Positions 1,273-26,952 of a DNA stretch of 64,000 nt are shown piece after piece. The position numbers were made by a program, and so were the translations under genes. The notes under the pieces were generated by a model, which was given only the letters and a program-made list of their open reading frames with translations, was not told where the DNA came from and did not search any database. This DNA comes from Pseudomonas sp. PDNC002 (GTDB lineage: Bacteria; Pseudomonadota; Gammaproteobacteria; Pseudomonadales; Pseudomonadaceae): the NCBI RefSeq assembly GCF_016919445.1, contig NZ_CP070356.1, positions 3,488,001 to 3,552,000 of the forward strand, given 5' to 3'. Numbering within the stretch: position 1 is the stretch's first letter; each line of letters opens with the position of its first letter.

Positions 1273-1290
1273 CTAGTCCCCTCGGACGAT
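1273..1290 (+). promoter_or_regulatory. Operator-like dyad, copy 1 (hsaA/hsaB intergenic region)
   Basis: The sequence is CTAGTCCCCTCGGACGAT, an inverted repeat GTCC-N4-GGAC with flanking T(A/C). It ends 75 bp before the hsaB start and lies about 150 bp upstream of the divergent hsaA start. Five further copies occur in this window, all before steroid genes. Confidence 0.7.
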
Positions 1291-1365
1291 GTTGCGCAGC
1301 GGGCACCACCACAGAATCCATCGCACTACACCTCAGTCCAACAAGAACCAGCGAGGCCCCGTGCG

Positions 1366-1884
1366 ATGAACCAGGACACTCTGAAAGCCGACATGCTCCA
1401 GGCCATGCGCCGGCTCGCCAAGTCGGTGACCATCATCACCACCAGCGATGGCCGCGAGCGCTACGCCATGTCGGCCACGGCGGTGGATTCTCTGTCCACC
1501 GAGCCGCCGTCGCTGCTGATCTGCGTGAACCAGACCGCCTCGCTGCACCGCGTGCTGGAGGCCGGCGCGGACTTCTGCGTGAACATCCTCGGCCAGGAGC
1601 AGGAACACCTGTCGCACCTGTGCAGTGGCCCGGTGAAAGGCGAGGGGCGCTTCGCCAGCGGCGACTGGCGCACCTCCGAGTGCGGCGTGCCGTACCTGGC
1701 GGACGCGCAGTCCAGCGTGGTCTGCGAGCAGGACGGGCGCTTCACCTACGGCACCCACACGGTGTTCATCGGACGCATCCGCGAGGTTCGCAATACCCCG
1801 CGCATCACCCCGCTGATCTACGTGAACGGCACCTACACCACCGCCGTCGCCGTGCAGGCGCCGAGCGTGGCGGCGGCGGGCTGA
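1366..1884 (+). CDS. hsaB: Flavin reductase component of the 3-HSA monooxygenase (HsaB)
   Basis: A 172-residue protein of the flavin reductase domain family (HpaC/HsaB type). It supplies reduced flavin to HsaA. Its N-terminus MNQDTLKADMLQAMRRLAKSV and the segments RYAMSATAVDSLSTEPPSLL and ADFCVNIL are the FMN-binding core of this family. Length fits (HsaB is about 170-190 aa). The frame is open upstream to 631, but ATG 1366 gives the family-length protein, so the extension was rejected. It is first in a + strand unit with the flavoprotein dehydrogenase 5 nt downstream, then a hydroxysteroid dehydrogenase and kshB. The upstream dyad at 1273 probably controls the unit. Confidence 0.9.
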   Translation: MNQDTLKADMLQAMRRLAKSVTIITTSDGRERYAMSATAVDSLSTEPPSLLICVNQTASLHRVLEAGADFCVNILGQEQEHLSHLCSGPVKGEGRFASGDWRTSECGVPYLADAQSSVVCEQDGRFTYGTHTVFIGRIREVRNTPRITPLIYVNGTYTTAVAVQAPSVAAAG

Positions 1885-1889
1885 TCGCC

Positions 1890-3551
1890 ATGGCCGGCAC
1901 ACTGCCGATCGCCCCGCTGCGCCTGGAAGCAGGCGAGCGCCTGGCCTGGCACGCCGAGACCGACCTGCTGGTGGTCGGCTTCGGCGGCGCCGGCGCCTGT
2001 GCAGCCCTGGAGGCGCGCGAACGCGGCCTTGAAGTGCTGGCCCTGGACCGCTTCGCCGGCGGCGGCGCCACCGCGCGCAGTGGCGGGGTGGTCTATGCCG
2101 GTGGCGGCACGCCGTACCAGCGCCAGGCCGGATACGCCGACGACGCCGACGCGATGTTCCGCTATCTGCAGGGCGAGGTGGCGGACGCCGTACAGAGTGC
2201 GACGCTGCGGGACTTCTGCGAGCGCAGTGTCGACCAGCTCGCCTGGCTGGAGCGCCAGGGCGCACGCTTCGAAGCCAGCGTGCCACCGCGGAAGACGTCC
2301 TATCCCAGCGACCGTTTCTACCTCTATTACTCGGGCAACGAAGCCGTGCCGGCCTACGCCAGCCTGGCGCAACCGGCGCCGCGCGGGCACCGCACCAAGG
2401 GGCGCGGCATGTCCGGCGCGGCCATGTTCGCGGCCTTGCGTGCTTCGGCACGGGAGAAAGGTGTGCAGCTTTACCGCCGGTGCGAAGTACGTCGGCTGGT
2501 GCAGGACGCCAGCGGTGCGGTGGTCGGCGTCGAGGCCTGGCGCCTGCCGCCGGGCAGCTTCGCCGCGCGCCGGCATGCCTGGCTGAGCCGGGCCGCCACC
2601 GCGTTGCATCCCTATGCGCCGCCACTGGCCGAGCGACTGATCGCGGCCCTGCGTCGCATCGAGGAACGGTACGCGCGGCCGCTGCTGATCCGTGCGCGCA
2701 AGGGCGTGCTGCTCAGTGCCGGCGGTTTCATCTTCAACCGCGAGATGCTCGCCGAGCATGCGCCGCAGTACCTGGCCGGTCTGCCGCTGGGTACGCCGGG
2801 CTGCGATGGCAGCGGCATCCGCCTGGGGCTCGGCGCCGGTGCTGCCGCGCAACGCCTGGACAAGGTCAGCGCCTGGCGCTTCATCAATCCGCCGCTGGCC
2901 TGGGCTCGCGGCGTGATCGTCAACTCGCGGGGCGAGCGCTACTGCAATGAGGAGGTCTACGGCGCGACTCTCGGCCACGCCATGGTGGAAGAGCAGGGCG
3001 GCCGCGCCATCCTGATCCTCGACCGTGCGCTGCTCAGGGAGTCGCTGCGCCAGGTCGGGCCGGGCAAGGTCTGGTCGTTCCAGCGCCTGCCGGTGCTGCT
3101 CAACCTGCTGTTCAACCGCCGTCGGGGCGATACGCCCGAAGCGCTGGCCCGCGCCATTGGCGTACCGGCGCAGAACCTGCAGCACACGCTGGAGGAGTAC
3201 AGCCGGGCCGCGCGGGGTGAGCACACCGACGCCTTCGGCAAGTCTTCGGCGATGCTCGCCGATCTGGACGACGGCCCCTGGTACGCCCTGGACCTGTCCT
3301 TCGACAGCAAGCTCTTCCCCTGTCCGGCCATCACCCTCGGCGGGCTGCGTGTCTGCGAGCGCAGCGGCCGCGTGCTGGACCACGCCGGCGCCGCGATTCC
3401 GGGGCTGTACAGCGCTGGTCGCAACGCGGTGGGTGTCGCTTCCAACCTCTACGTATCCGGCCTGTCCATCGCCGACTGCGTGTATTCCGGCCGCCGCGCC
3501 GCCGTCCACGCGGCGTCCCGCGCGGCAGCTGTCATCCCCGAAACCGCCTGA
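1890..3551 (+). CDS. FAD-dependent 3-ketosteroid dehydrogenase, Kst4D/TesI-like
   Basis: A 553-residue flavoprotein of the fumarate reductase/3-ketosteroid dehydrogenase superfamily. The Rossmann FAD motif VVGFGGAGACAALEARERG sits near residues 29-47, followed by GGATARSGGVVYAGGGTPYQ. The C-terminal flavin-binding segment is GLYSAGRNAVGVASNLYVSG. The LYVSGLSIADCV-type ending is, from memory, more like the delta4-(5alpha)-dehydrogenases (Kst4D/TesI) than delta1-dehydrogenases, which have a TYPGAG-type segment. The likely reaction is introduction of a ring A double bond into a 3-ketosteroid. No clear Shine-Dalgarno is visible, so translation is probably coupled to hsaB 5 nt upstream. KstD (delta1) is the alternative. 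Confidence 0.65.
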   Translation: MAGTLPIAPLRLEAGERLAWHAETDLLVVGFGGAGACAALEARERGLEVLALDRFAGGGATARSGGVVYAGGGTPYQRQAGYADDADAMFRYLQGEVADAVQSATLRDFCERSVDQLAWLERQGARFEASVPPRKTSYPSDRFYLYYSGNEAVPAYASLAQPAPRGHRTKGRGMSGAAMFAALRASAREKGVQLYRRCEVRRLVQDASGAVVGVEAWRLPPGSFAARRHAWLSRAATALHPYAPPLAERLIAALRRIEERYARPLLIRARKGVLLSAGGFIFNREMLAEHAPQYLAGLPLGTPGCDGSGIRLGLGAGAAAQRLDKVSAWRFINPPLAWARGVIVNSRGERYCNEEVYGATLGHAMVEEQGGRAILILDRALLRESLRQVGPGKVWSFQRLPVLLNLLFNRRRGDTPEALARAIGVPAQNLQHTLEEYSRAARGEHTDAFGKSSAMLADLDDGPWYALDLSFDSKLFPCPAITLGGLRVCERSGRVLDHAGAAIPGLYSAGRNAVGVASNLYVSGLSIADCVYSGRRAAVHAASRAAAVIPETA

Positions 3552-3563
3552 AGGAAAACAAGC

Positions 3564-4319
3564 ATGAATCGAGTACAAGGCAAGGTCTGCATCGTCACCG
3601 GCGCCGCCAGCGGCATCGGCCGCGAGGACGCGCTGCTGCTGGCCGGCGAGGGCGCCCGCGTGGTCCTCACCGACCTCAACGAGGAGGCCGGCCGCGCGCT
3701 GGCCGAGCAGATCGGCGGCGACGCGCTGTTCATCCGCCACGACATCGCCAGTGAAAGCGACTGGCAGCATGTGGTGAAGACCACCCTGGAGCGTTTCGGC
3801 CGCCTCGATGTGCTGGTCAACAACGCCGCCATCCTTGCCCTGGGCAGCATCGAGGACACCAGCCTGGAGCTGTGGCGCAAGGTGCAGACCATCAACGGCG
3901 AGGGCTATTTCCTCGGCTGCAAGTACGCCATCGCGGCCATGAAGGAGAGCGGCGGCGGCTCCATCGTCAACATGTCCTCGGTGGCCGCGCTGGGCGGCAT
4001 GCCGGCGTTCTGCGCCTACTCGGCGTCCAAGGGCGCGGTGGCGGCGATGACCCGCTCCATCGCCCTGCACTGCAAGCAGCAGGGCTACCGCATCCGCTGC
4101 AACAGCGTGCACCCGGACGGCGTCAACACGCCGATGACCCAGGCCCTGGCCGGCGGCCAGCCGATCCCCCAGGAGGCGCTGGATGCCGACCCGATGAACC
4201 GCATGTGCGCACCGCAGGACATCGCCAACGTGGTGCTGTTCCTCGCCTCGGACGAGTCGCGCTTCATCAACGGCGCCGAGATCCGCGTGGACAACGCCCA
4301 GCTGATCAGCGGTATCTGA
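3564..4319 (+). CDS. 3beta/17beta-hydroxysteroid dehydrogenase (SDR)
   Basis: A 251-residue classical short-chain dehydrogenase. It has the NAD-binding motif TGAASGIG (residues ~12-19), NNA near 87, and the YSASKGAV active site (Y-x3-K). Several segments closely follow the Comamonas testosteroni 3beta/17beta-HSD as I recall it: FIRHDIASESDW, NSVHPDGVNTPM and FLASDESRFINGAEIRVDN. It should oxidise the 3beta- or 17beta-hydroxyl of steroids to the ketone, feeding the dehydrogenase encoded just upstream. It lies between that gene (12-nt gap, with a GAAGGAAAA ribosome site) and kshB (1-nt gap). Confidence 0.75.
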   Translation: MNRVQGKVCIVTGAASGIGREDALLLAGEGARVVLTDLNEEAGRALAEQIGGDALFIRHDIASESDWQHVVKTTLERFGRLDVLVNNAAILALGSIEDTSLELWRKVQTINGEGYFLGCKYAIAAMKESGGGSIVNMSSVAALGGMPAFCAYSASKGAVAAMTRSIALHCKQQGYRIRCNSVHPDGVNTPMTQALAGGQPIPQEALDADPMNRMCAPQDIANVVLFLASDESRFINGAEIRVDNAQLISGI

Positions 4320-4320
4320 G

Positions 4321-5397
4321 ATGGGTAGCGCGCAGCCCCTGGCGCCCCAGGCATCGAGCGCCGCCGGCAGCTTCCAGTTGGAGGTGGCCGAGGTCATCGA
4401 GGAAACCGCCGATGCGCGCTCGCTGGTGCTGCGCGTACCGGCGCAACTGGCCGAGCGCTTCGCCTACCAGGCCGGACAGTTCCTCGGTTTCCGCGTCAGC
4501 GTGGCGGGCAAGCGCCTGCTGCGCTGCTACTCCATGTCCAGCGCGCCGGGGCTCGACTCGGCGCTGCGGGTCACGATCAAGCGCGTCGAAGGCGGGCGTG
4601 TATCGAACTGGATGAACGACAGCGTTCGCCCCGGAGATTGCCTGGAGGTGCTGCCGCCTGCGGGACACTTCCACCTGGGCGCGGAGCAGCGTGACCTGCT
4701 GCTGTTCGGTGGCGGCTCGGGCATCACGCCGGTGTTTTCCATCCTGCGCGAGGCACTGGCCAGCCGCGATTGCCGCATCCGCCTGGTGTACTCCAACCGT
4801 GATGCCGATTCGGTGATCTTCCGCGAGGCGTTGCGCAGCCTGCTGCGCGAGCATGGCGAGCGCCTGCAGGTGATCCATGTGCTGGACAGCGTGCAGGGCT
4901 TTCTCGCCGCCAGCGATGTGCGTCATCTGCTGCGTGGCTGGGAGGATGCGGAATGTTTCATCTGCGGCCCCGGCCCGTTCATGGATACCGTGGAGAACGG
5001 TCTGCTGGCGGCAGGTGTGTCGCCGGCGCGGGTGCATGTGGAACGCTTCGTCTCGCCGCCCGATCCGGACGAACTGGAAGCCGCCGACGAGCAGGCCCGG
5101 CGCGCCACCGAGGGCCTGGAGGTGGAGCGGCTGACCGTCAGCCTCGACGGCGCCGAGCATGAGATTGCCTGCGCAGCCGGCGAAACCCTGCTGGAAAGCT
5201 GCCGCCGCGCCGGCCTGGCGCCACCATCTTCCTGCGAGGAAGGCTTCTGCGGCGCCTGCATGTGCCGGGTGGAGCAGGGCGAAGTGCTGCTGCCGCGCAA
5301 CGATGTGCTCAGCGCCGCCGAGCTGGCCGAAGGCTGGACCCTGGCCTGCCAGGGGCGCGCCGGCACCCGTGAGGTGCGCGTGCGCTTCCCCGATTGA
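4321..5397 (+). CDS. kshB: 3-ketosteroid 9alpha-hydroxylase, reductase component (KshB)
   Basis: A 358-residue three-domain reductase passing electrons from NADH to the Rieske oxygenase KshA, which hydroxylates C9 and triggers ring B opening. In order: an FAD domain with RCYSMSSAPG (about residues 64-73), an NAD domain with LFGGGSGITPVFSIL (about 129-143) and CGPGPFMDTVENGL, and a C-terminal plant-type 2Fe-2S domain with the CEEGFCGACMC cluster and a distal Cys in TLACQG. Length and domain order match KshB. The start codon follows the preceding stop by 1 nt. No KshA gene is in the window, so its oxygenase partner must be encoded elsewhere. Other phenylacetyl-CoA-type reductases share this architecture, but the context decides. 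Confidence 0.85.
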   Translation: MGSAQPLAPQASSAAGSFQLEVAEVIEETADARSLVLRVPAQLAERFAYQAGQFLGFRVSVAGKRLLRCYSMSSAPGLDSALRVTIKRVEGGRVSNWMNDSVRPGDCLEVLPPAGHFHLGAEQRDLLLFGGGSGITPVFSILREALASRDCRIRLVYSNRDADSVIFREALRSLLREHGERLQVIHVLDSVQGFLAASDVRHLLRGWEDAECFICGPGPFMDTVENGLLAAGVSPARVHVERFVSPPDPDELEAADEQARRATEGLEVERLTVSLDGAEHEIACAAGETLLESCRRAGLAPPSSCEEGFCGACMCRVEQGEVLLPRNDVLSAAELAEGWTLACQGRAGTREVRVRFPD

Positions 5398-5572: not shown

Positions 5573-5590
5573 CTAGTCCCAATGGACGAT
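5573..5590 (+). promoter_or_regulatory. Operator-like dyad, copy 2
   Basis: CTAGTCCCAATGGACGAT, ending 69 bp before the SDR start at 5660. A TAGTCT hexamer about 21 bp downstream could be a -10 element. Same dyad as at 1273. Confidence 0.7.
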
Positions 5591-5659
5591 TTGCCGCCGC
5601 CGCCGGCCCGCTAGTCTGCGGCGCAGAGCAAACCGACAACAACAAACAGAGGTGTGCGA

Positions 5660-6406
5660 ATGAATCGACTGCAAGGCAAGATCGCCGTGGTCACGGGTGC
5701 GGCATCGGGTATCGGGCTGGCCTGCGCCCGCTGTTTCGCCGAGGAGGGCGCCCAGGTCGTCGGCCTGGACGTGGGCCAGGCGCCAGCGGACTTCCCCGGC
5801 CTGTTCATGGGCCTGGACGTGCGCGACGAAAGCAACGTGCAGCAGGTGATGGGTGAAGTCGTCTCGCGCCATGGCCGTCTCGACGTGCTGGTCAACGCCG
5901 CGGGCGTCGCCAGCCAGGGCAGCGTCACCGCGTCGCCCACCAGCGAGTGGCAGCGCGTGCTGGACATCAACCTCACCGGCACCATGTACACCAGCAAGCA
6001 TGCGGTAGCGCAGATGGTCGAGCAGCGCGGCGGCTCGATCATCAACATCGGCTCGATCTTCGGCTTGCAGGGCTGCGACGGCAACACCGCCTACAACGTG
6101 GCCAAGGGCGGCATCAACCAGCTGACCCGCTCCATGGCCATCGACTACGGCCATGCCAACGTGCGGGTCAATGGCCTCTGCCCGGGGCTGATCGAAACCC
6201 CGATGACGCAAATGGTCCGCGAGCAGGAAGCTTTCCACGCCTTCTTCGCCTCGCAGCACATGCTGTGTCGCGCCGGGCAGCCGGAAGAGGTGGCCAAGGT
6301 GGCCCTGTTCCTGGCTTCCGACGACGCGTCCTTCGTCAGCGGCCAGATGATTGCCGTCGACGGCGGCTTCTCCGCGGGCCGCCGCTTCGCGCCGCCCCAG
6401 GCCTGA
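5660..6406 (+). CDS. Short-chain dehydrogenase of the steroid cluster
   Basis: A 248-residue classical SDR beginning MNRLQGKIAVVTGAASGIG, with NAA near residue 83 and the YNVAKGG active site, and ending FLASDDASFVSGQMIAVDGG. The frame could begin at GTG 5654, but ATG 5660 has an AGAGG 7 nt upstream and is preferred. It is first in a two-gene unit with fadD3, and the dyad lies upstream. It presumably oxidises a hydroxyl on a steroid or HIP-type intermediate, but the substrate cannot be read from the sequence. It shares its N-terminal wording with the SDR at 3564, so the two may be paralogues. Confidence 0.8.
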   Translation: MNRLQGKIAVVTGAASGIGLACARCFAEEGAQVVGLDVGQAPADFPGLFMGLDVRDESNVQQVMGEVVSRHGRLDVLVNAAGVASQGSVTASPTSEWQRVLDINLTGTMYTSKHAVAQMVEQRGGSIINIGSIFGLQGCDGNTAYNVAKGGINQLTRSMAIDYGHANVRVNGLCPGLIETPMTQMVREQEAFHAFFASQHMLCRAGQPEEVAKVALFLASDDASFVSGQMIAVDGGFSAGRRFAPPQA

Positions 6407-6477
6407 GCCCGGCCTTGCCAGCGGGCCGGCACGGTGCCGGCCCACTCTCGATTCCTGTTCGTCCTGAGCTGCCCGCC

Positions 6478-8052
6478 ATGAACTGCCCGTCGTCCGCCCT
6501 GACCATTCCCCAGCTGCTTGCCGCCACGGCGTCCACCTATGGTGACCTGCCGGCCATCGAGGATGGCGACGTCCGCCTGAGCTATCGCCAGCTCGATGAT
6601 GCACGCCGCCGCGCCGCGCGGGCGCTTCTGGCACTGGGTGTCGGCCATGGCGAACGGGTCGCGGTGTGGGCGCCGAATTTCTGGGAATGGATAGTCGCGG
6701 CGACGGCGCTGCAAAGCGTCGGCGCCGTGCTGGTGCCGCTCAATACCCGGATGAAGGGCGCCGAGGCGGCCCTGGTGCTGCGCGAAAGCGGCGCCAGCCT
6801 GTTGTTCGTGATGAGCGAGTTCCTCGGCATCGACTTCCCGGCGTTGCTGGACGACGAGGAGTTACCGGCGCTGCGCCAGCGCGTGATCCTGCGTGGTTCT
6901 CGGGAGCGCGCGCTGGATTGGCCGACCTTCCTGGCGCTGGCCAATAACGTCGACGACAGCGCCCTGGAACGGCGGCAGGCAGAGATTCACGCCGACGATC
7001 TGTGCGACCTGCTGTTCACCTCCGGCACCACCGGCAAGCCCAAGGGCGTGATGACCGCCCACGGGCAGAACCTGCAGCTGGTGCGCGACTGGAGCGAAAT
7101 GGTCGGCCTGCGTGAAGGCGACCGCTACCTGATCGTCAATCCGTTCTTCCACAGTTTCGGCTACAAGGCCGGCTGGCTGGCGGCGCTGATGCGCGGCTGC
7201 TGCATCCTGCCGCAAGCGGTGTTCGATGTTCCCCTGTTGCTGCAGCGCGTGGCCGCCGAACGGGTGACGGTGCTGCCCGGCCCGCCGACGCTGTACCAAT
7301 CGCTACTGGCCCATCCGCGTCGGGGCGAGTTCGACCTGTCCTCGCTGCGTGTGGCCGTTACCGGCGCCGCCTCGGTGCCGGTGGAGATGGTCCGGCGCAT
7401 GCGCGGCGAGCTGGGCTTCGAGACCATCGTCACGGCCTACGGCCTCACCGAAACCTGCGGCTTCGTCACCATCTGCCGCCCCGGCGACGATGCCGAGACC
7501 ATTGCCACCACCAGTGGCCGGGCCTTCCCCAATGTCGAGGTTCGCTGCGTGGATAGCCAGGGCCGCAGCGTGGCCAGCGGCGAGCCGGGCGAAGTGGTGG
7601 TGCGTGGCTACAACCTGATGCGCGGCTACTTCAACAATCCCGAAGCGACCGCCGAGGCCATCGACCGTGACGGCTGGCTGCATACCGGCGACGTCGGCGT
7701 GCTCGATGAGCGTGGCTACCTGCGCATCACCGACCGGCTCAAGGACATGTTCATCAACGGCGGCTTCAACGTGTACCCGGCGGAGGTCGAGCAGACCATC
7801 CTCGGCTACCCCGGCGTGGCCCAGGCCGCGGTGATCGGCATCCCCGACGAGCGCCTGGGGGAGGTGGCCATGGCGTTCCTGTTGCCGGCCTCCGGCCAGG
7901 CGATCGACCTGGACGCCTTCCTCGCCTGGTGCCGCGAGCGCATGGCCAACTACAAGGCGCCGCGCCGGGCCATGCTGCTCGATGCACTGCCGCTCAATGC
8001 CGCCGGCAAGGTGACCAAGGCAGCGTTGCGGGAGCTGGCTGCGAGCTCCTGA
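6478..8052 (+). CDS. fadD3: Acyl-CoA synthetase, FadD3-like (HIP-CoA ligase)
   Basis: A 524-residue ANL-superfamily ligase. The P-loop-like motif is LLFTSGTTGKPKG (~177-189), A5 is TAYGLTETCG, A7 is GWLHTGDVG, A8 is RLKDMFINGGFNVYP, and the late lysine is in NAAGKVTK. The segment FFHSFGYKAGW is typical of FadD3, which activates the propionate side chain of HIP, the C/D-ring remnant left after hsaC-hsaD cleavage. The frame stays open far upstream, but ATG 6478 begins right after the SDR and gives family length. It is followed by a strong terminator. Assignment as FadD3 rests on the motif plus the ipd genes nearby. Confidence 0.82.
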   Translation: MNCPSSALTIPQLLAATASTYGDLPAIEDGDVRLSYRQLDDARRRAARALLALGVGHGERVAVWAPNFWEWIVAATALQSVGAVLVPLNTRMKGAEAALVLRESGASLLFVMSEFLGIDFPALLDDEELPALRQRVILRGSRERALDWPTFLALANNVDDSALERRQAEIHADDLCDLLFTSGTTGKPKGVMTAHGQNLQLVRDWSEMVGLREGDRYLIVNPFFHSFGYKAGWLAALMRGCCILPQAVFDVPLLLQRVAAERVTVLPGPPTLYQSLLAHPRRGEFDLSSLRVAVTGAASVPVEMVRRMRGELGFETIVTAYGLTETCGFVTICRPGDDAETIATTSGRAFPNVEVRCVDSQGRSVASGEPGEVVVRGYNLMRGYFNNPEATAEAIDRDGWLHTGDVGVLDERGYLRITDRLKDMFINGGFNVYPAEVEQTILGYPGVAQAAVIGIPDERLGEVAMAFLLPASGQAIDLDAFLAWCRERMANYKAPRRAMLLDALPLNAAGKVTKAALRELAASS

Positions 8053-8887: not shown

Positions 8888-8905
8888 CTAGTCCCATTGG
8901 ACGAT
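8888..8905 (+). promoter_or_regulatory. Operator-like dyad, copy 3 (before hsaC)
   Basis: CTAGTCCCATTGGACGAT, ending 82 bp before the hsaC start. It is the clearest GTCC-N4-GGAC copy and heads the largest steroid unit. Confidence 0.7.
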
Positions 8906-8987
8906 GTTGGCCACCGCCCGCGCTGTTTGAATCCTCATCACCAGCCGATCCGCACGACGCATCGGCGATGATGATGAGGAGAACACC

Positions 8988-9884
8988 ATGGATATCCGCG
9001 GACTGGGCTACGTGACCGTCCTGGCCAGCGACCTGGAGCGCTGGCGCAGCTATGCCAGCGACGTGCTGGGCATGATGGTGGACGCCGCCGCTCCCGAGGG
9101 CGCGCTGTACCTGAAGATGGACGAGCGCCACTACCGCCTGCTGGTGCTGCGTGACGAGCGCGACGGCTACGGCGCCAGCGGCTGGGAAGTGGCCGGCAAG
9201 GCCGCCTTCGAGCAGGCCATCGCCGAGCTGGCTCAGGCCGATGTCGAGGTAGCCCGTGGCAGCGCCGCCGACTGCGCGCTGCGCAAGGTTCAGGAACTGG
9301 CGCTGTTCCGCGATCCGGATGGCAATCGCCACGAACTCTTCTGGGGACCATGCCAGGACTTCCGCCCGTTCGTCTCGCCGGCGGGTGTCAGCGGCTTCGT
9401 CACCGGCGCCATGGGCATGGGCCACGTGGTGCTGCCGGCGCCGGCCTTCGAACGCTGCCGCGACTTCTACGAGCAGGTGATGGGCTTCGGCCTCTCCGAC
9501 CTGATGAAGGTGCGTTTCACCCCCGACCCGCAGGAGCCGGAGAAGCGTATCCACTTCCTCCACTGCAACAACGCCCGCCACCACTCCCTGGCGATCTTCG
9601 AGTGCCCGATCCCCAGCGGCTGCGTGCACCTGATGCTGGAAACCGCCGCCCTCGACGACGTCGGCCGCGCGCTGGATCGCATGCACGCCAGCGGCGTGAA
9701 GCTCTCGGCGACCCTGGGCAAGCACACCAACGACCAGATGGTGTCGTTCTACATGCAGAGCCCCGGCGGCTTCGACATCGAGTACGGCCATGGCGGGCTG
9801 GAAGTGGACTGGGCGGCGCACACGCCATTCGAAAGCACCGTGGTCAGCCATTGGGGCCACGACTTCAGCGTCGGCCGCCAGTAA
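8988..9884 (+). CDS. hsaC: 3,4-DHSA extradiol dioxygenase (HsaC/TesB)
   Basis: A 298-residue type I (VOC-fold) extradiol dioxygenase cleaving the steroid catechol 3,4-DHSA at the meta position. It has two tandem VOC domains. The Fe(II) ligands are visible in the C-terminal one: His146 in GMGHVV, the second His of RHHSL (~199) and Glu in FDIEYG (~265). These are arranged as in BphC, which has 146/210/260. It opens the long unit hsaC-ipdA-ipdB-ech-ipdC-echA20-ipdE1-ipdE2-fadA6, with 10 nt to ipdA. ATG 8988 is 82 bp past the dyad. BphC-type enzymes are the alternative, but the neighbours make HsaC the call. Confidence 0.92.
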   Translation: MDIRGLGYVTVLASDLERWRSYASDVLGMMVDAAAPEGALYLKMDERHYRLLVLRDERDGYGASGWEVAGKAAFEQAIAELAQADVEVARGSAADCALRKVQELALFRDPDGNRHELFWGPCQDFRPFVSPAGVSGFVTGAMGMGHVVLPAPAFERCRDFYEQVMGFGLSDLMKVRFTPDPQEPEKRIHFLHCNNARHHSLAIFECPIPSGCVHLMLETAALDDVGRALDRMHASGVKLSATLGKHTNDQMVSFYMQSPGGFDIEYGHGGLEVDWAAHTPFESTVVSHWGHDFSVGRQ

Positions 9885-9894
9885 GGAGCGCAAC

Positions 9895-16544: not shown

Positions 16545-17693
16545 ATGGCAGAAGCCTACATAGTCGACGCCCTGCGCACGCCCACCGGCAAGCGCAAGGG
16601 CGGCCTGGCGCAGATCCATGCCGCCGACCTGGGCGCCCACGTGCTGCGCGAGCTGGTGCAGCGCAACGGCATCCCCGACGCGGACTACGACGACGTCATC
16701 TTCGGCTGCGTCGATACCATCGGCCCACTGGCCGGCGACATCGCCCGCACCTGCTGGCTGGCCGCCGGCCTGGACCAGGGCGTGCCCGGCACCACGGTGG
16801 ACCGCCAGTGCGGCTCCTCGCAGCAGGCCGTGCACTTCGCCGCGCAGGCGGTGATGAGCGGCACCCAGGACGTGGTGATCGCCGGCGGCGTGCAGACCAT
16901 GACGCAGATTCCGATTTCTTCGGCCATGACCGCCGCCGAGCCGCTGGGCTTCAGCGATCCCTTCAGCGGCTCGGAAGGCTGGGTCAGGCGCTATGGCGCC
17001 ACGCCGCCGAGCCAGTTCCTTTCGGCTCAGATGATTGCGGAGAAGTGGCATATCAGCCGGGAGGCGCTGGAAGCCTATTCGCTGGAGTCCCATCGCCGCG
17101 CCTTGCGCGCCATCGAGGCGGGGCGCTTCGCCCGCGAGATCGTCCCGCTGGCCGGTGTTCAACATGACGAGACGCCGAGGCAGACCAGTTTGGCGAAGAT
17201 GGCCGAACTGGAAATCCTGTTCGGTTGCGACCGCGTCACGGCAGGTGTTTCCAGCCAGACCTGCGACGCCGCCAGCGCGCTGCTGATCGTCTCGGAGCGT
17301 GCGCTCAAACGCTACAACCTGACGCCGCGTGCGCGCATCCACCACCTCAGCGTGCGCGCGGACAACCCGGTGTGGATGCTCACCGCGCCCATCCCGGCCA
17401 CTGAATACGCCCTGAAGAAGGCCGGCATGCGCCTGGACGATATCGACCGGGTGGAGATCAACGAAGCCTTCGCCTCGGTGGTCATGGCCTGGCTGCAGGA
17501 AACCGGCTACCCCCACGAGCGCACCAACGTCAATGGCGGCGCCATCGCCCTCGGCCACCCGCTGGGCGCCACCGGCGCGCGGCTGATGACCACGCTGCTG
17601 CATGAGCTGGAGCGCACTGGCGGCCGCTACGGCCTGCAGACCATGTGTGAAGGCGGCGGGCAGGCCAACGTGACCATCATCGAGAGACTGTGA
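16545..17693 (+). CDS. fadA6: Steroid-ring thiolase FadA6
   Basis: A 382-residue thiolase. The nucleophile is Cys89 in [10 protein letters not shown], the His is in [15 protein letters not shown] and the second Cys in [11 protein letters not shown]. It performs the thiolytic release of acetyl-CoA from the opened C-ring chain. It is last in the hsaC unit, 10 nt after the dehydrogenase, with AGGAG before the ATG. FadA6 rather than FadA5 is inferred from its linkage to ipdAB/ipdC/echA20. The second thiolase at 23438 is the better FadA5-like candidate. Confidence 0.85.
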
Positions 17694-19604: not shown

Positions 19605-19622
19605 CACGTCCATTCGGACGAT
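19605..19622 (+). promoter_or_regulatory. Operator-like dyad, copy 4 (before the second dehydrogenase pair)
   Basis: CACGTCCATTCGGACGAT, ending 58 bp before the start at 19681. The left half-site deviates (ACGTCC), but the GTCC-N4-GGAC core and the right half GGACGAT are intact. Confidence 0.6.
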
Positions 19623-19680
19623 TCCCGCCCGAGCATCTCCCGCCAGACTGCGCCCATCCGACACCACAGGGCCGCTTTCC

Positions 19681-20847
19681 ATGGAATTCGCCTTCACCGA
19701 CGAGCAGCTGATGATCCGCGACAGCGCGGAGAGCTTTCTCGCCGATGCTTCACCTACCAGCGCCGTGCGCGTGGCCATGGCCGCGGGCGGGCACGACGCC
19801 ATGCTCTGGCAGCGGATTCGCGATGAACTCGGCTGGCAGGCGTTGCTGGTGCCCGAGGCCCACGGCGGCCTGGGGCTGGGCTTCGTCGAGCTGGCGATCG
19901 TCCAGGAGCAGTTGGGCCGTCGCCTGGCGTCGCTGCCGTTCCTCGCCAGTGCCATCGCCATCTGCGCCCTGCGCCTGCTGGGTGACGAGGCGCAACAGGC
20001 GCGATGGTTGCCGGCATTGGCCGAGGGCAGCCTGAGCGCAACCCTGACGCTGGGCGCCGAAGGTGCGCCGGACGTCGGCGCGGTTCAGATCCAGGCGCGC
20101 AAGGAGGGCGAGGGTTTCGTGCTGGATGGCCGCCTGCGCCCGGTGCTAGATGGCCACAGTGCCGACCTGCTGCTGATCCCCGCGCGGCTGGCCGGCAGCC
20201 GGGGTGAAGAGGGCATCTGCCTGTTCGCCGTTCCTGCGATCAGCACCGGCTTGCAGCGTCGTGCCTTGCCAACGCTGGACCAGACCCGCCCGCTCGCCGA
20301 AATCGAATTGGACAATCTCTATCTCCCCGCCGACGCATTGCTCGGCGTAGCCGGCAGCGCCTGGCCGAAACTGCAAACCGTCCTGCAACTGGCCGCTATC
20401 GCCCTGGCCGCCGAGCAGGTCGGCGGCGCCCAGCAGGCGCTCGACCTCACCGTCGCCTACACCCGTGAACGCCAGCAGTTCGGCCGCCCGGTGGGCAGTT
20501 TCCAGGCGCTCAAGCACCGCATGGCGGACATGATGGTGAAGGTCGAATGCGCACGCTCTGCGCTCTACTACGCCGCGTGCGTGGCCCAGGACACGCTGGA
20601 CGCTGAGGGCGATTCGGCCCTCGCCGCCGAGCTGCCGCTGGCCGCTGCCGTGGCCAAGTCCCAAGCTTCGGAAGCCTTCTTCCACTGCGCCGCCGAGTCG
20701 ATCCAGCTGCATGGCGGGGTCGGCTTCACCTGGGAGTACGACCCGCACCTGTACTTCAAGCGCGCCCGCGCCGGCGAGAGCCTGTTTGGCAAACCCGCCT
20801 GGCACCGCGAGCGCATCGCTGCAGCGATCCTGGAGGAACGCCCATGA
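19681..20847 (+). CDS. Acyl-CoA dehydrogenase, second pair, short-beta-domain type
   Basis: A 388-residue acyl-CoA dehydrogenase starting MEFAFTDEQLMIRDSAESFL. It has YTRERQQFGRPVGSFQALKH (~260-279) and IQLHGGVGFTWEYDPHLYFK near the C-terminus. The middle domain lacks the SEPGAGSD motif that its partner has, so this is one half of an alpha2beta2 pair. The frame is open to 19513, but the upstream part crosses the repeat and dyad, so ATG 19681 is used. Its stop overlaps the next ATG by 4 nt. The pair heads a unit with ipdF and a MaoC gene, suggesting a C/D-ring or side-chain CoA ester as substrate. Confidence 0.78.
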   Translation: MEFAFTDEQLMIRDSAESFLADASPTSAVRVAMAAGGHDAMLWQRIRDELGWQALLVPEAHGGLGLGFVELAIVQEQLGRRLASLPFLASAIAICALRLLGDEAQQARWLPALAEGSLSATLTLGAEGAPDVGAVQIQARKEGEGFVLDGRLRPVLDGHSADLLLIPARLAGSRGEEGICLFAVPAISTGLQRRALPTLDQTRPLAEIELDNLYLPADALLGVAGSAWPKLQTVLQLAAIALAAEQVGGAQQALDLTVAYTRERQQFGRPVGSFQALKHRMADMMVKVECARSALYYAACVAQDTLDAEGDSALAAELPLAAAVAKSQASEAFFHCAAESIQLHGGVGFTWEYDPHLYFKRARAGESLFGKPAWHRERIAAAILEERP

Positions 20848-22037
20848 AGATCGGATTCGACGCCGCCGACGAAGCCTTTCGCGGCGAATTCGCCCAGTGG
20901 CTGGCGGACAACCTGCGCGGCGAGTTCGAGCCGCTGCGCTTCCGCGGTGGCCCCGGTGACGAGCACAGCTTCCCGGTGGAACGCAAGGCCTGGGAGCGCA
21001 AGCTCGCCGAGGGTGGCTGGACCTGCGTGGGCTGGGCCAGGGAGCACGGCGGGCGCGGCCTGTCGATCAACCAGCAGGTGATCTTCCACGAGGAATACGC
21101 CCGCGCCGGCGGCCCCGGTCGCATGGGCCACATCGGCGAAGGGCTGGCCGGGCCGACCATCGCCGCCTTCGGCAATGACGAGCAGAAACGCCGGCTGCTG
21201 CCGGGCATCGTCAGCGGCCGGGAGTTCTGGTGCCAGGGCTATTCCGAGCCGGGCGCCGGCTCCGACCTTGCGGCGGTCAAGACTCGCGCCACTTTCGACG
21301 CCGAGCGTGGCGTGTGGCGGATCAACGGGCAGAAGGTCTGGACCTCGCTGGCCCACGAATCCGACTGGTGCTTCGTCATCGCCCGCAGCGAGGCGGGTAG
21401 CGTCGGCCATCACGGCCTTTGCTTCCTGTTGGTGCCGATGAATCAGCCGGGCATCAGCGTGCGGCCGATCGAGCAGCTCACCGGCACGTCGGAATTCAAC
21501 GAGGTGTTCTTCGATGACGCCGAGACCGCCGCCGAGAACCTGCTGGGCGCGCCGGGGGATGGCTGGAAGATCGCCATGGCATTGCTGGGCTTCGAGCGTG
21601 GTGTCTCCACCCTCGGCCAGCAGATGCAGTTCCACAACGAGCTGGACGAGATCATCCGTATTGCCCGCGCCAATGGCGCCGCCCGCGACCCGCTGCTGCG
21701 TCAGCGCCTGGCCGAGGCTTGGGGCGGGCTCAAGGTGCTGCGCTACAACTCGCTACGCATGCTCTCCGGCACACAGGACGGCGGCCTGCGGCCCGAGGCG
21801 CTGATCTACAAGCTGTGCTGGTCCGAGTGGCACGCGCGGTTGGGCAAGCTGGCCATGGACGTGCTCGGCGCCGAGGCGGAAATCCTCGACGGCTCGCCGT
21901 ACCAGCTCAGCCGTTTGCAGGGCCTGTCCCTGTTCAGCCGCTCCGACACCATCTACGGCGGCAGCAACGAGATCCAGCGCAACCTCATCGCCGAGCGTGC
22001 GCTCGGCCTGCCCAGAGAACCCAAGGTGCCTCGCTAG
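20844..22037 (+). CDS. Acyl-CoA dehydrogenase, second pair, SEPGAGSD-type subunit
   Basis: A 397-residue acyl-CoA dehydrogenase with QGYSEPGAGSDLAAVKTRA (~133-151), WRINGQKVWTSLA, and the C-terminal DTIYGGSNEIQRNLIAERAL. It begins inside the stop of its partner (4-nt overlap), so the two are translated together. The layout mirrors the ipdE1/ipdE2 pair at 14295-16534, except that the order of the two types is reversed. Both pairs probably act on different desaturation steps. ipdF follows 12 nt later. Confidence 0.78.
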   Translation: MKIGFDAADEAFRGEFAQWLADNLRGEFEPLRFRGGPGDEHSFPVERKAWERKLAEGGWTCVGWAREHGGRGLSINQQVIFHEEYARAGGPGRMGHIGEGLAGPTIAAFGNDEQKRRLLPGIVSGREFWCQGYSEPGAGSDLAAVKTRATFDAERGVWRINGQKVWTSLAHESDWCFVIARSEAGSVGHHGLCFLLVPMNQPGISVRPIEQLTGTSEFNEVFFDDAETAAENLLGAPGDGWKIAMALLGFERGVSTLGQQMQFHNELDEIIRIARANGAARDPLLRQRLAEAWGGLKVLRYNSLRMLSGTQDGGLRPEALIYKLCWSEWHARLGKLAMDVLGAEAEILDGSPYQLSRLQGLSLFSRSDTIYGGSNEIQRNLIAERALGLPREPKVPR

Positions 22038-22049
22038 GAGATCGCACTC

Positions 22050-22832
22050 ATGCTCAAACCCGAATACGTATCCGGCCGCGGCCTGCTGCGCGGCAAGTCG
22101 GTGCTGATCACCGCGGCCGCCGGCGCCGGCATCGGCTTTTCCGCCGCCCTGCGCGCCGCCGAGGAAGGCTGCCGCGCGCTGATGATCAGCGACATCCATG
22201 AAGGCCGGCTGAACGAGGCGGTGGAGCGCATCCGCCAGGCCTGCGGGCTGCAGGCGGTGTACGGGCAGGTCTGCAATGTCACCAGCGAGGAGCAGGTGCG
22301 CGCCCTGGTGGCGGCCGCCGAGGAACGCCTGGGCGGTGTCGACGTGCTGATCAACAACGCAGGACTGGGCGGCTCGCGCACGCTGGTGGAAATGACCGAC
22401 GAGGAGTGGCACCGCGTCCTCGACGTCACCCTCACCGGCACCATGCGCATGACCCGCGCCATGCTGCCGTACATGATGGAGCGCCGCGCCGGCGCCATCG
22501 TCAACAACGCCTCGGTGCTCGGCTGGCGCGCGCAGAAAGAGCAGAGTCACTACGCCGCGGCCAAGGCCGGGGTGATGGCGCTGACCCGTTGTGCCGCGCT
22601 GGAGGCGGCGGAGCACGGCGTGCGCATCAACGCCGTGAGCCCGAGCATCGCCCTGCACGATTTCCTGCGCAAATCCGCCCCCCAGGAACTGCTGGAGAAA
22701 CTGGCTTCCACCGAGGCGTTCGGCCGCGCCGCCGAGGTCTGGGAAATCGCCAACGTGATGATGTTCCTGGCCAGCGACTACAGCTCCTACATGACCGGCG
22801 AAGTGCTGTCGGTCTCCAGCCAGAGGGCCTGA
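22050..22832 (+). CDS. ipdF: IpdF-like SDR (5-hydroxy-HIC-CoA dehydrogenase)
   Basis: A 260-residue SDR. The segments RGLLRGKSVLITAAAGAGIG, INNAGLGGSRTLVEMTDEEW, VNNASVLGWRAQKEQSHYAA and ASDYSSYMTGEVLSVSSQ are, from memory, highly characteristic of the Rv3559c/IpdF group. Tyr and Lys of the active site are in HYAAAKAG. It would oxidise the 5-hydroxyl of the HIC-CoA intermediate before ring D opening. It sits between a dehydrogenase pair and a MaoC hydratase (1-nt gap). Confidence 0.8.
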   Translation: MLKPEYVSGRGLLRGKSVLITAAAGAGIGFSAALRAAEEGCRALMISDIHEGRLNEAVERIRQACGLQAVYGQVCNVTSEEQVRALVAAAEERLGGVDVLINNAGLGGSRTLVEMTDEEWHRVLDVTLTGTMRMTRAMLPYMMERRAGAIVNNASVLGWRAQKEQSHYAAAKAGVMALTRCAALEAAEHGVRINAVSPSIALHDFLRKSAPQELLEKLASTEAFGRAAEVWEIANVMMFLASDYSSYMTGEVLSVSSQRA

Positions 22833-22833
22833 C

Positions 22834-23292
22834 ATGGCGCGTGTCTTCGAGCATCCGGAAGAGCTCCTGGCCTGTATCGGCGAAGTGCTTGGCGAGAGTG
22901 ACTGGCTCACCGTCGACCAGTCGCGCATCGACCAGTTCGCGCAGGCCACCGGCGACCACCAGTGGATCCATGTCGACCCCGTGCGCGCGGCCAGCGGTCC
23001 CTATGGCACCTGCATCGCCCACGGCTACCTGACGCTGTCGCTGGTCAACCTGTTCCTGCCGCAGATCGTCGAGGTGCGCGGTATCGCCATGGGAGTCAAC
23101 TACGGCTGCGACCGCGTGCGCTTCCCCAGCGTGGTCAAGGCCGGCGCCCGCGTGCGTGGCCGCGCCGAGCTGGTTGCCGCCGAGGCGCTGAAGGGCGCGG
23201 TACAGGCCACGGTGCGCGTCAGCGTCGAGATCGAGGGCGAACAGCGCCCCGGCTGCGTGGTGGACACCATCAGCCGTTACTGCCCCGCTTAA
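22834..23292 (+). CDS. MaoC-like (R)-hydratase
   Basis: A 152-residue single hot-dog domain of the MaoC dehydratase family. The hydratase motif is intact: FAQATGDHQWIHVDP (Asp and His catalytic, ~37-51), then PYGTCIAHGYLTLSL. Such proteins add water to an enoyl-CoA. It starts 1 nt after the ipdF stop. Within this unit it would hydrate a product of the adjacent acyl-CoA dehydrogenases. Which intermediate is unknown. Confidence 0.8.
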   Translation: MARVFEHPEELLACIGEVLGESDWLTVDQSRIDQFAQATGDHQWIHVDPVRAASGPYGTCIAHGYLTLSLVNLFLPQIVEVRGIAMGVNYGCDRVRFPSVVKAGARVRGRAELVAAEALKGAVQATVRVSVEIEGEQRPGCVVDTISRYCPA

Positions 23293-23309
23293 CGAGCTCT
23301 TCGTCGTGC

Positions 23310-23385
23310 GTAGGGCGAATAACCTGGAACAGGTTATCCGCCGGCTGCGGTGTGGCGGATAACGCTGGCGCGTTATTCGCCCTAC
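23310..23385. repeat. Nested inverted repeat between the maoC-like gene and the thiolase
   Basis: The outer 14-bp arms GTAGGGCGAATAAC (23310-23323) and GTTATTCGCCCTAC (23372-23385) are perfect. An inner 10-bp pair GTTATCCGCC (23333-23342) and GGCGGATAAC (23354-23363) is also perfect. A third small hairpin, AACCTG-gaa-CAGGTT, overlaps the left arms and would compete with them. It is REP/MITE-like. Confidence 0.75.
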
Positions 23386-23437
23386 GAAAGCCGCCGCCCG
23401 CGCCCAGGGTTCCCTTACAAAAACCTGAGGATTCGCA

Positions 23438-24640
23438 ATGAGAGAAGCCGTCATCGTCTCCACCGCCCGCACCGCCATCGGGAAGGCCTTCCGTGGCGTC
23501 TTCAACGACACCGAGGCGCCTGCCATGGGTGGCGCAGTGGTGGCCGAAGTGGTGCGCCGCGCCGGTGCCGAGCCGGGCGAGGTGGAGGACGTCATCATCG
23601 GCGCCGCCGCGCAGCAGGGCACCCAGGCCTACAACCTCGGCCGCCTCTGCGCCATCGCCGGCGGCTTGCCGTCGAGCGTGGCCGGCATGGCCGTGGAGCG
23701 CCAGTGCGCATCGGGCCTGATGAGCATCGCCATCGCCGCCAAGTCCATCGTCTGCAACGAGCTGGACATCGCCGTGGCCGGCGGCCTGGAGTCCATTTCC
23801 CTGGTGCAGAACAAGCACAAGAACGCCTACCGCAACCAGTCGCAGGCCGTGCTTGCCCACGACCCGGCGGCCTACATCCCGATGATCGAGACCGCCGAGA
23901 TCGTCGCCGCACGCTACGGCATCAGCCGCGAAGCCCAGGATGCGTATTCACTGCGCAGCCAGCAGCGCACGGCGGCAGCGCAGCGCGATGGCCTGTTCGC
24001 CGACGAAATCCTGCCCCTGAACGCGCAGCGCCTGGTGGTGGACAAGGCCAGTGGCGAAAGCCGTCACGAAACCGTGCTGATCGACCGTGACGAATGCAAC
24101 CGTGTCGACACCACGCTTGCCAGCCTCGCCGCCCTGGAACCGGTGTGGCAGGGCGGCCAGTGGAGCGAAGCGGGGCGGTTCATCACCGCCGGCAACGCAT
24201 CCCAACTCTCCGACGGCGCCTCGGCATCGCTGCTGATGGAAGCGCGCGAGGCAGAGCGCCGCGGGCTGCAACCGCTGGGCATCTACCGGGGCCTGGCGGT
24301 GGCCGGCTGCAATGCCGACGAGATGGGTATCGGGCCGGTCTTCGCGATCCCGAAACTGCTCCAGCGCCACGGCCTGAAGATGGACGACATCGGCCTGTGG
24401 GAGCTCAACGAAGCCTTCGCCTGCCAGGTGCTGTTCTGCCAGGACAAGCTGGGCATTCCCGATGAGCGCCTGAACGTCAACGGTGGCGCCATTGCCATCG
24501 GCCATCCGTTTGGCATGTCCGGCGCGCGCATGGCTGGCCACGCGCTGCTGGAAGGGCGTCGTCGCGGGGTGCGTTATGTGGTGGTGAGCATGTGCATCGG
24601 CGGCGGCATGGGCGCGGCCGCGCTGTTCGAGGTGGCCTGA
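23438..24640 (+). CDS. Thiolase (acetyl-CoA acetyltransferase family), FadA5-like
   Basis: A 400-residue thiolase. The nucleophilic Cys is in [11 protein letters not shown] (~90), the His in [15 protein letters not shown] and the second Cys in [10 protein letters not shown]. Start codon follows a GAGG-type site. Its stop overlaps the next ATG (tgATGg), coupling it to the isomerase gene. It is a second thiolase in the cluster and might act on the C17 side chain (FadA5 role) or on another keto-CoA intermediate. The sequence alone does not separate these. Confidence 0.82.
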
Positions 24641-25808: not shown

Positions 25809-26579
25809 TCATCCCTGGGCCGCTTCGAGGAAGGCGGGGCGCTCGCCGCCGCCGTGCAGGGCAATCTCGGCGCCGCTGACATAGGCCGCCAGCGGTGAAG
25901 CAAGATACAGGCAGGCATCGCCGATATCCCCCGGCTCGGCCAGGCGTCCCAGCGGTACGGTGCTGGCCACGCGTTGCAGGCCGGCTTCGTCACCGTAATG
26001 CAGGTGGCTCTGCTCGGTGCGGATCAACCCGCCGATCACCGCATTGACCCGCACCTTCGGCGCCCATTCCACCGCCAGCGAGCGGCCCAGGTTGAGCAGC
26101 CCGGCCTTGGCCGCGCCATAGGCGGCGGTGCCGGGAGAAGGGCGGGTGGCGCTGACGCTGCAGATGTTGATGATGCTGCCGCCGCTGGCTTGCTGCTGCA
26201 TGCGCTGGTTGGCCAGTTGGCAGAGGTTCAGCGGCGCCAGCAGGTTGAGCCGGACGATGGCCTCGGAGAAGCGGGGCGAAGCGTCGGCGGCATCGGCGTA
26301 AGGTGCGCCGCCGGCATTGTTGACCAGCACATCCAGGCGGCCATGGCGTTCATCGATGGCCGCCATCAGGGCCTGCAACTGATCGAAGTCGCGCACATCG
26401 CAGGGGATGAACCAGGCTTCGCGTCCGTCGTGATTCGGTAGCTGTTCGGGGGCCTCGCGACCGCAGATCACCACCTCGGCGCCCTGTTCCAGGAAGCATT
26501 GGCTGATGCCCCGGCCCGCACCCTTGCCGCCGCCGGTGACCAGCACCACCTGGCCGCTGAAATCCAAAGCTCTCGTCAT
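25809..26579 (-). CDS. SDR of the steroid cluster, reverse-strand unit
   Basis: A 256-residue classical SDR: VLVTGGGKGAGRGISQCFLE is the cofactor site, LVNNAGGAPY is near residue 86, and SVSATRPSPGTAAYGAAKAG carries Ser, Tyr and Lys. It ends in a beta-strand with HGGGERPAFL. It runs opposite to hsaD and is followed 4 nt later by an SRPBCC gene. A reverse-strand copy of the operator-like dyad lies 54 bp before its start. Substrate unknown; a hydroxysteroid or hydroxyacyl-CoA is likely by location. Confidence 0.78.
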   Translation of the reverse strand: MTRALDFSGQVVLVTGGGKGAGRGISQCFLEQGAEVVICGREAPEQLPNHDGREAWFIPCDVRDFDQLQALMAAIDERHGRLDVLVNNAGGAPYADAADASPRFSEAIVRLNLLAPLNLCQLANQRMQQQASGGSIINICSVSATRPSPGTAAYGAAKAGLLNLGRSLAVEWAPKVRVNAVIGGLIRTEQSHLHYGDEAGLQRVASTVPLGRLAEPGDIGDACLYLASPLAAYVSGAEIALHGGGERPAFLEAAQG

Positions 26580-26633
26580 GTCCGTTCCTCTGTGGGGAAG
26601 GCTTGCAGCCTAGGCGCGGCGGCCTCGCGCGCC

Positions 26634-26651
26634 CACGTCCGAAGGGACTAG
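26634..26651 (-). promoter_or_regulatory. Operator-like dyad, copy 5 (reverse strand)
   Basis: Read on the - strand it is CTAGTCCCTTCGGACGTG. It lies 54 bp before the SDR start at 26579. A TAGGCT hexamer about 21 bp on (toward the gene) could be a -10. Note the last two bases differ from the GAT consensus. Confidence 0.65.
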
Positions 26652-26767
26652 GGCGGCGCCTGCGTTCGAGCATGGTGTTGGCGGTAGGCGAGGTGTATCG
26701 GCGTGCAACCGCGAACGGTTGTACGCCCTACGCCAGGGTCGAGCGCTGGCGCGTGGCTGGCCTTCGG

Positions 26768-26868
26768 CCCCTCACCCCAGCCCTCTCCCGGAGGGAGAGG
26801 GGACTGACATGGCATCAGGCGGAACACCGAACCTCCCGGCAACATCGTACGGCCCTGGGGTGAGGGGG
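26768..26868. repeat. Diverged copy of the CCCTCACCC-bordered element
   Basis: It begins CCCCTCACCCCAGCCC with an adjacent CTCTCCCGGAGGGAGAG hairpin and ends CTGGGGTGAGGGGG. The interior is not clearly alignable with the array units. It lies in the 429-bp divergent region between the SDR and hsaD, between the two dyads. Confidence 0.7.
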
Positions 26869-26934
26869 AATCGCACGCACGGGCTTCCCGGCAGGCATCA
26901 GAGCGCAGAGTGGTTCTTGCCCACGAGATCCCCC

Positions 26935-26952
26935 GTAGTCCTCTCGGACGAT
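26935..26952 (+). promoter_or_regulatory. Operator-like dyad, copy 6 (before hsaD)
   Basis: GTAGTCCTCTCGGACGAT, ending 56 bp before the hsaD start. A TAATCC stretch about 24 bp downstream is a possible -10. Confidence 0.7.

Follow-up and report, generated by a model that had tools for sequence, protein, structure and literature searches.

The regulation of bile-acid degradation in Proteobacteria has been described as largely unknown (PMC8399759; here and below, statements attributed to publications refer to excerpts of the cited papers). In Comamonas testosteroni, TeiR/TesR is a LuxR-type positive regulator (PMC6678751, PMC6895838), and one paper repeats an earlier statement that tesR-like genes are confined to strains of this species (PMC6895838). 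The steroid cluster of Pseudomonas stutzeri Chol1 contains two TeiR-like genes, and deletion of one of them delays growth according to unpublished work (PMC8399759). An alphaproteobacterial cluster includes a LuxR-type gene that is up-regulated by progesterone; Saro_3594 of Novosphingobium aromaticivorans is named in this context (PMC12239570). Homologues of the actinobacterial regulators KstR and KstR2 are stated to be absent from bile-acid-degrading Proteobacteria (PMC8399759). For the CrbR/ErdR system, the ACTU motif, an imperfect inverted repeat immediately preceding the promoter, spans positions -52 to -36 (PMC5715377). In an open-access collection without preprints we found neither an operator of TeiR/TesR nor a description of the present dyad as a steroid operator. 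Here we analyse this 18-bp dyad, that precedes steroid genes in a 64-kb stretch (the window; genome positions 3488001-3552000) of Pseudomonas sp. PDNC002, whose genome is a single contig of 6.39 Mb.

Our results make it very probable that this dyad is the operator of a LuxR-family activator, P0001, which would switch on a steroid-degradation regulon. A first-pass annotation of the window had proposed that six dyad copies define a whole steroid regulon, and this regulon now comprises twelve predicted promoters, including those of kstD, kshA and the hsaB-, hsaC- and hsaD-like genes. All six copies were recovered, each at its position and on its strand. Three match CTAGTCC-N4-GGACGAT exactly: CTAGTCC-CCTC-GGACGAT at 1273..1290 (plus strand; 75 bp before the ATG at 1366; predicted -10 CAGAAT at 1312..1317), CTAGTCC-CAAT-GGACGAT at 5573..5590 (plus; 69 bp before the ATG at 5660; -10 TAGTCT at 5612..5617) and CTAGTCC-CATT-GGACGAT at 8888..8905 (plus; 82 bp before the ATG at 8988; -10 TTGAAT at 8927..8932). 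GTAGTCC-TCTC-GGACGAT at 26935..26952 (plus; 56 bp before the ATG at 27009; -10 AATAAT at 26975..26980) has one mismatch. Two mismatches are present in CACGTCC-ATTC-GGACGAT at 19605..19622 (plus; 58 bp before the ATG at 19681; weakly scoring -10 CAGACT at 19644..19649) and in CTAGTCC-CTTC-GGACGTG at 26634..26651 (minus; 54 bp before the ATG at 26579; -10 TAGGCT at 26607..26612). The distances to the start codons agree with the 54-82 bp given before. The core GTCC-N4-GGAC occurs eight times in the window compared to 1.5 expected, and none of 100 shuffles reached eight. The two surplus cores (48086, 61945) do not fit the longer motif, and with a matrix built from the twelve genome sites, the six window sites included, a score of at least 14 returned the six dyads of the window and nothing else.

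In the whole genome the total is twelve sites, not six; that all copies are linked to steroid genes still holds. Three further dyads lie just upstream of the window (genome 3483642, minus; 3483691, plus; 3487901, minus) and three at a second locus (genome 4989538, minus; 4989565, plus; 4991944, plus), and each of the twelve stands before a steroid gene or a gene that its position ties to steroid genes. The pair at 3483642 and 3483691 separates the divergent DUF1302 gene (genome 3483543, minus) and kstD (3483787, plus), the dyad at 3487901 precedes an LLM oxidoreductase gene (genome 3487822, minus), and the pair at 4989538 and 4989565 separates a short-chain dehydrogenase/reductase (SDR) gene (genome 4989472, minus) from kshA (4989666, plus). 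The genome scan suggested by the first-pass annotation found both kstD and kshA preceded by a dyad, and few matches elsewhere: of eight hits that allow up to one mismatch, steroid loci account for seven, and the eighth (1806827) lies in an apparent coding stretch and has no -10. Among 50 hits with two mismatches, five belong to the set of twelve, at the same loci. Since a reversed control pattern gives 154 hits at up to two mismatches, this level alone proves nothing.

Motif match alone selected seven of the twelve sites, and position together with a less good match the other five; the -10 played no part in the choice. A -10-like hexamer starts 21-23 bp after all twelve, where the first-pass annotation had noted one 21-24 bp past several copies. 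With offsets 21-28 considered, the best hexamer starts at 22 in nine sites, at 23 in two and at 21 in one; in the window it starts at 22 bp in five of six dyads and at 23 bp in the sixth, the one at 26935. Scored with one fixed matrix, the mean -10 score over the twelve sites is 1.87 at offset 22 compared to -7.74 (sd 2.15) over all offsets. No conserved -35 hexamer was found across the twelve sites; five of them have a TTG in the four bases that follow the dyad. With the hexamer at -12 to -7, the dyad would occupy -51 to -34 and be centred at -42.5, which refines the activator site near -40 proposed before and is a class II position. LuxR-type activators in class II activation bind a site centred near -42.5. 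In some relatives the dyad takes the form of the full palindrome ATCGTCC-N4-GGACGAT, and upstream of kshA a palindromic dyad with a correctly spaced -10 on both strands was seen in L120 (8726), L124 (8720) and L128 (6494). Because the -10 fits on both strands, one palindromic site may serve two divergent promoters.

The twelve sites also differ from other hits in their coding state. Their codon scores (best frame) are all negative, -0.17 or lower, compared to 0.44-0.83 for mid-gene controls from eight training genes. The scanned loci contain 25 other hits scoring at least 12 that lie outside the two steroid regions, with codon scores of 0.09-0.86; for four of these the score is only 0.09-0.18 and the coding state ambiguous. 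Twenty-three of the 25 have no -10 at the right distance. Of the two that do, 1171915 overlaps a stretch with a codon score of 0.32 and 3461145 one with 0.40; 3461145 also overlaps the start of a small open reading frame (ORF). That the motif is a general Pseudomonas element was rejected on these grounds, i. e. the positive codon score of all 25 hits and the missing -10 in 23. A variant pattern matched 21 places in the genome, ten of which were already known or tested; ten of the remaining eleven have a positive codon score, and the last (3224078) has a matrix score of 7.3 and a weak -10.

The first-pass annotation had found no LuxR-type regulator in the window. This is correct; a candidate is encoded about 1.5 million bases away beside kshA. 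P0001 has 380 amino acids (genome 4990805-4991947), lies directly downstream of kshA, and a dyad overlaps its stop codon. It consists of a LasR/GAF-like domain, a PAS-like domain and a GerE helix-turn-helix (HTH), the latter matching PF00196 at residues 318-371 (27.5 bits, cut-off 23.5). In this genome there are 29 GerE matches, P0001 among them, and a search with P0001 finds only itself at E<=1e-30. In Pfam at E<=0.001 the protein gave HTH families only, with no receiver domain, no autoinducer-binding family and no TetR family; its HTH is C-terminal and of the GerE type. In NCBIfam one histidine-kinase model matched at 18.5 bits (cut-off 400). The predicted fold matches LasR/VqsR domains, with GAF domains tying, in a comparison mainly over residues 4-178. 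The closest named relative is from Pseudomonas pseudonitroreducens (98% identical), although the listing may omit records nearest this genome; the type strain of Pseudomonas resinovorans carries an orthologue as well.

The P0001 gene follows kshA in the same direction at a distance of 89-101 bp, so that transcripts begun at the kshA promoter could run on into it and create a positive feedback loop. No dyad is present in the 140 bp before the gene in this genome, and autoregulation through a dyad of its own was therefore rejected; the relative L119 has a hit of 13.2 there. Just before the P0001 start we noticed a Crc/Hfq-like motif, AACAACAA (10792-10799 of L051, the locus of this genome with P0001). 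A Crc-like AANAANAA is found in three of the twelve regulon leaders and near the regulator start in 19 of 22 loci of relatives; its presence at the regulator start suggests that the putative activator may be subject to catabolite repression. Beside the regulator gene, a 55-aa ORF (L051 12023-12190; genome 4992023, plus) has its own dyad, the one at 4991944, and -10. It has no Pfam match and may encode a small secreted or membrane protein belonging to the regulon.

Co-occurrence of regulator and motif was studied in 398 Pseudomonadaceae genomes, with motif copies counted at up to one mismatch. All 38 genomes with a P0001 match at E<=1e-160 (68-100% identity) have 6-14 copies, with a median of 10. 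In 34 genomes with a weaker match only (1e-30 or better) the median is two, and 12 have at least five. For the other 326 genomes, in which nothing matched at 1e-30, the median is one copy; only five of them reach at least five copies, as scattered one-mismatch hits with no exact hit, and none of the five has a full-length homologue, though one has two partial matches. A Mann-Whitney test of the 38 against the 326 gives p = 1.5e-26, shared ancestry being ignored. KshA_C was found in 55 of 238 sampled genomes, 53 of them among the 72 with a P0001 match. In G236, where the regulator search gave no match, an 18-mer that differs from the motif by a single mismatch is present in four identical copies (C1:176284, C3:463, C3:73016, C11:561271) and is perhaps repeat-borne.

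Conservation was assessed by counting dyads that score at least 17 and have a -10 scoring at least 0, in comparison with 20 shuffle sets. Fourteen named Pseudomonas loci (284 kb) contain 51 such dyads (0.05 per shuffle set), four Endozoicomonas loci 7 (0.2 per shuffle set), five plasmid loci from Cupriavidus, Caballeronia, Burkholderia, Vibrio and Sphingobium 10 (none in shuffles), and eight loci of a phylum sample 5 (none in shuffles). These counts are not independent, as palindromic copies count on both strands and the Pseudomonas loci are related. Over 50 loci, 87 of 124 dyad instances precede a homologue of one of 33 steroid-locus genes of this genome: kshA (22), the SDR gene beside kshA (12), HsaA-like genes (7), the 55-aa ORF (6, with 45-95% identity), kstD (4), hsaD (4), DUF1302 (4), hsaC (2), the regulator itself (2) and others. 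A dyad precedes HsaA- and HsaC-like genes in Caballeronia, a KstD-like gene in Cupriavidus C39 and a KshA-like gene in Endozoicomonas elysicola. In the alphaproteobacterium Sphingobium, a dyad with a -10 TAAAGT is found before the gene annotated as 3-ketosteroid-9-alpha-monooxygenase oxygenase.

The recognition helix is conserved as well. It reads NTARAHLR in 14 of 15 aligned homologues and NTARSHLR in the fifteenth, and the full-length homologues of sixteen further Pseudomonadaceae loci have NTARAHLR, or NTSRAHLR in L229 and L230, where dyads are present. In a small sample of four remote homologues whose helices differ (27-31% identity; N. aromaticivorans pNL2, Mesorhizobium, Mycobacterium intracellulare and Neorhizobium), no dyad accompanied by a -10 occurs within 10 kb; at the M. 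intracellulare locus there is a single dyad-like hit, which scores 15.2 and lacks a -10, and no dyad is near the pNL2 regulator, which lies beside an LLM gene (L232). The idea that genomes with homologues of about 40% identity and few or no motif copies (G004, G144, G119) use another operator was dropped, since variant dyads with the right -10 are present in L218, L219 and L223; L220 (G168) has no dyad at a score of 17. An order-wide search aimed at Comamonas found a homologue in three of 250 genomes, and no Comamonas locus is among the 19 homologue loci or the 30 matches listed.

The most probable interpretation is that a dimer of P0001 binds the inverted half-sites, roughly TAGTCC-N4-GGACGAT, centred near -42.5. 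The bound dyad would stand in for a good -35 element, and P0001 would recruit RNA polymerase by class II activation to the -10 that starts 21-23 bp after the dyad. The protein might answer to a steroid or a steroid-CoA intermediate through its LasR/GAF-like or PAS-like domain. We infer binding and activation from the dyads, their spacing, the place of the genes, co-occurrence and conservation.

Several observations weigh against this interpretation. Some -10 hexamers are weak (GATAAC 1.0, CAGACT 1.8 and GAACAT 2.0 as the best of offsets 21-28), and we recognised no separate site for the HsaA-like gene with which the window begins. The leave-one-out scores of true sites, from 17.7, overlap those of other genome hits, which go up to 19.9; because of this overlap the dyad alone does not define the regulon. 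Across loci, 37 of the 124 dyad instances have no recognised homologue downstream, in eight of the 87 the gene behind the dyad is that of the regulator or the 55-aa ORF, and several of the SDR and hydratase homologues match weakly, at 27-40% identity. Seven of the 50 homologue loci (L129, L176, L178, L179, L180, L182, L220) have no dyad of at least 17 with a -10, 22 of the 34 genomes with only weaker homologues have fewer than five motif copies, and Cupriavidus N-1 (42.9% identity, NTARAHLR kept) has only weak dyads of 13.8 and 16.6. The fold confidence of P0001 is modest (pLDDT 71.7). Finally, co-occurrence alone cannot separate P0001 from another steroid-linked factor.

The last point leads to the first alternative: the dyad could be a steroid-regulon site bound by another protein, for instance a nearby AraC-type or an unlinked LuxR-type regulator, while the P0001 gene merely travels with the pathway. 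Co-occurrence fits any such factor, an AraC-type gene is present at L051 12408-13397, and the genome has 28 other GerE matches. Yet an 18-bp dyad centred at -42.5 is LuxR-type geometry, dyads share loci with LuxR-type homologues in Vibrio, Caballeronia, Sphingobium and Endozoicomonas, and the recognition-helix letters track dyad presence, with exceptions. Moreover, the two KshA_C genomes without a P0001 match at 1e-30 (G183 and G197, a very small sample) have two and no motif copies, respectively. We regard this alternative as unlikely. Still less probable is that the dyad is a repressor operator overlapping the promoter, with a steroid ligand causing release, as with KstR in actinobacteria. 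A repressor could also act from the -35 region, which the dyad does overlap, and in Comamonas a LuxR-named repressor of one steroid gene has been described (PMC6678751). Against this, the promoters look activator-dependent because there is no conserved -35 hexamer, and TeiR/TesR is reported as a positive regulator (PMC6678751, PMC8399759). A role of the dyad in RNA, or its origin by chance or from a repeat, can practically be dismissed: GTCC-N4-GGAC could pair as a stem and two-mismatch hits are common in this G+C-rich genome, but the dyad lies upstream of the predicted -10 and would thus not be transcribed from that promoter, across genera the half-sites and the spacing are kept whereas the four bases in the centre and the spacer differ, and the observed numbers are far above those of shuffles.

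The genes behind the window dyads are as follows. The dyad at 1273 precedes a plus-strand operon of four genes (1366..5397): a flavin reductase (1366-1884; HsaB by context, with a model score under the curated cut-off), a FAD dehydrogenase related to ketosteroid dehydrogenases (1890-3551), an SDR (3564-4319) and a ferredoxin reductase (4321-5397). Divergent from this dyad, at about 150 bp, is the HsaA-like gene (1-1123, minus); HsaA-like genes of other loci do follow a dyad, as counted above. The 5573 unit (5660..8052, plus) encodes an SDR (5660-6406) and an AMP-binding ligase (6478-8052). In the 8888 unit (8988..17693, plus) an HsaC-like extradiol dioxygenase gene is followed by genes for a CoA transferase, a member of the nitronate-monooxygenase family, enoyl-CoA hydratases, acyl-CoA dehydrogenases and a thiolase. 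The unit at 19681..24640 (plus; the scan left out the ORFs between 22832 and 23438) encodes acyl-CoA dehydrogenases, an SDR and a thiolase; its first acyl-CoA dehydrogenase is related to the pimeloyl-CoA dehydrogenase and IpdE2 models. The 26634 dyad precedes an SDR dehydrogenase gene transcribed leftwards (25809..26579, minus), and the 26935 dyad a unit (27009..29542, plus) from an alpha/beta hydrolase, HsaD by context (27009-27836), to an acetaldehyde dehydrogenase (28634-29542), of which these two end genes were scanned. HsaC is the best NCBIfam model for the extradiol dioxygenase. Since the NCBIfam scores are below the cut-offs (KstD 617 of 789 bits, HsaC 308 of 450, HsaB 81 of 230), these three names rest on best match and context; KshA_C (Pfam) is well above its cut-off (261.7 bits, cut-off 23.3).

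Two further features were seen among these units. Shortly before the 19605 dyad, and flanked by steroid-linked genes on both sides, is a tandem array at 18834-19496 (73-bp unit, 9.1 copies, 93% matches). Genes for a ParE-like toxin and a Phd/YefM-like antitoxin (below cut-off) lie at 8100-8726, after the ligase gene and before the hsaC dyad; the Vibrio locus L136, which holds a regulator homologue, also has an annotated Txe/YoeB toxin-antitoxin pair.

A predicted operator, its promoter geometry, a candidate activator and a twelve-promoter regulon could here be defined from sequence, with support from several genera. This makes an open regulatory question testable, offers a route to steroid biosensors and would let unknown steroid genes be found by their promoters. 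A wider reading, whose odds we consider about even, is that a single activator-operator pair controls the aerobic degradation of steroids and bile acids in alpha-, beta- and gammaproteobacteria and has moved between them together with the pathway. In that case the regulator would be a LuxR-type receptor that directly senses eukaryote-made steroids or their CoA intermediates, and the steroid box would allow whole steroid regulons, including unannotated transport and side-chain genes, to be read from sequence.

How does P0001 compare with the described regulators? TeiR/TesR is a LuxR-type regulator encoded near steroid genes, which it is required to induce (PMC6678751, PMC6895838). The gene upstream of P0001 encodes a KshA_C protein, so that it shares this linkage; the likeness seen here is one of description and context. 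TeiR/TesR has been described as a membrane protein with polar location that acts through a kinase activity; P0001 gave only HTH families in Pfam. The two TeiR-like genes of P. stutzeri Chol1 resemble the tandem homologues in Pseudomonadaceae loci studied here, with dyads nearby in L218, L219, L222 and L223; no motif or regulon is given in the account excerpted from PMC8399759. CrbR/ErdR likewise combines a LuxR-family HTH with an inverted repeat just before the promoter. However, the ACTU half-sites differ from those of the steroid dyad (e. g. TACTACCATCGTCGAAT), and CrbR belongs to a two-component system for acetate use, whereas P0001 has no receiver-domain match in Pfam. Among the quorum-sensing LuxR proteins taken as the compared group (LasR, VqsR, CviR, RhlR), it is the LasR and VqsR domains that P0001 matches in fold, level with GAF domains. 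KstR and KstR2 are TetR-type repressors, unlike the GerE-type P0001, yet they exert the same pathway-wide control over steroid genes (PMC8399759). By these comparisons the predicted system is of the kind of a LuxR-type pathway activator with a lux-box-like operator.

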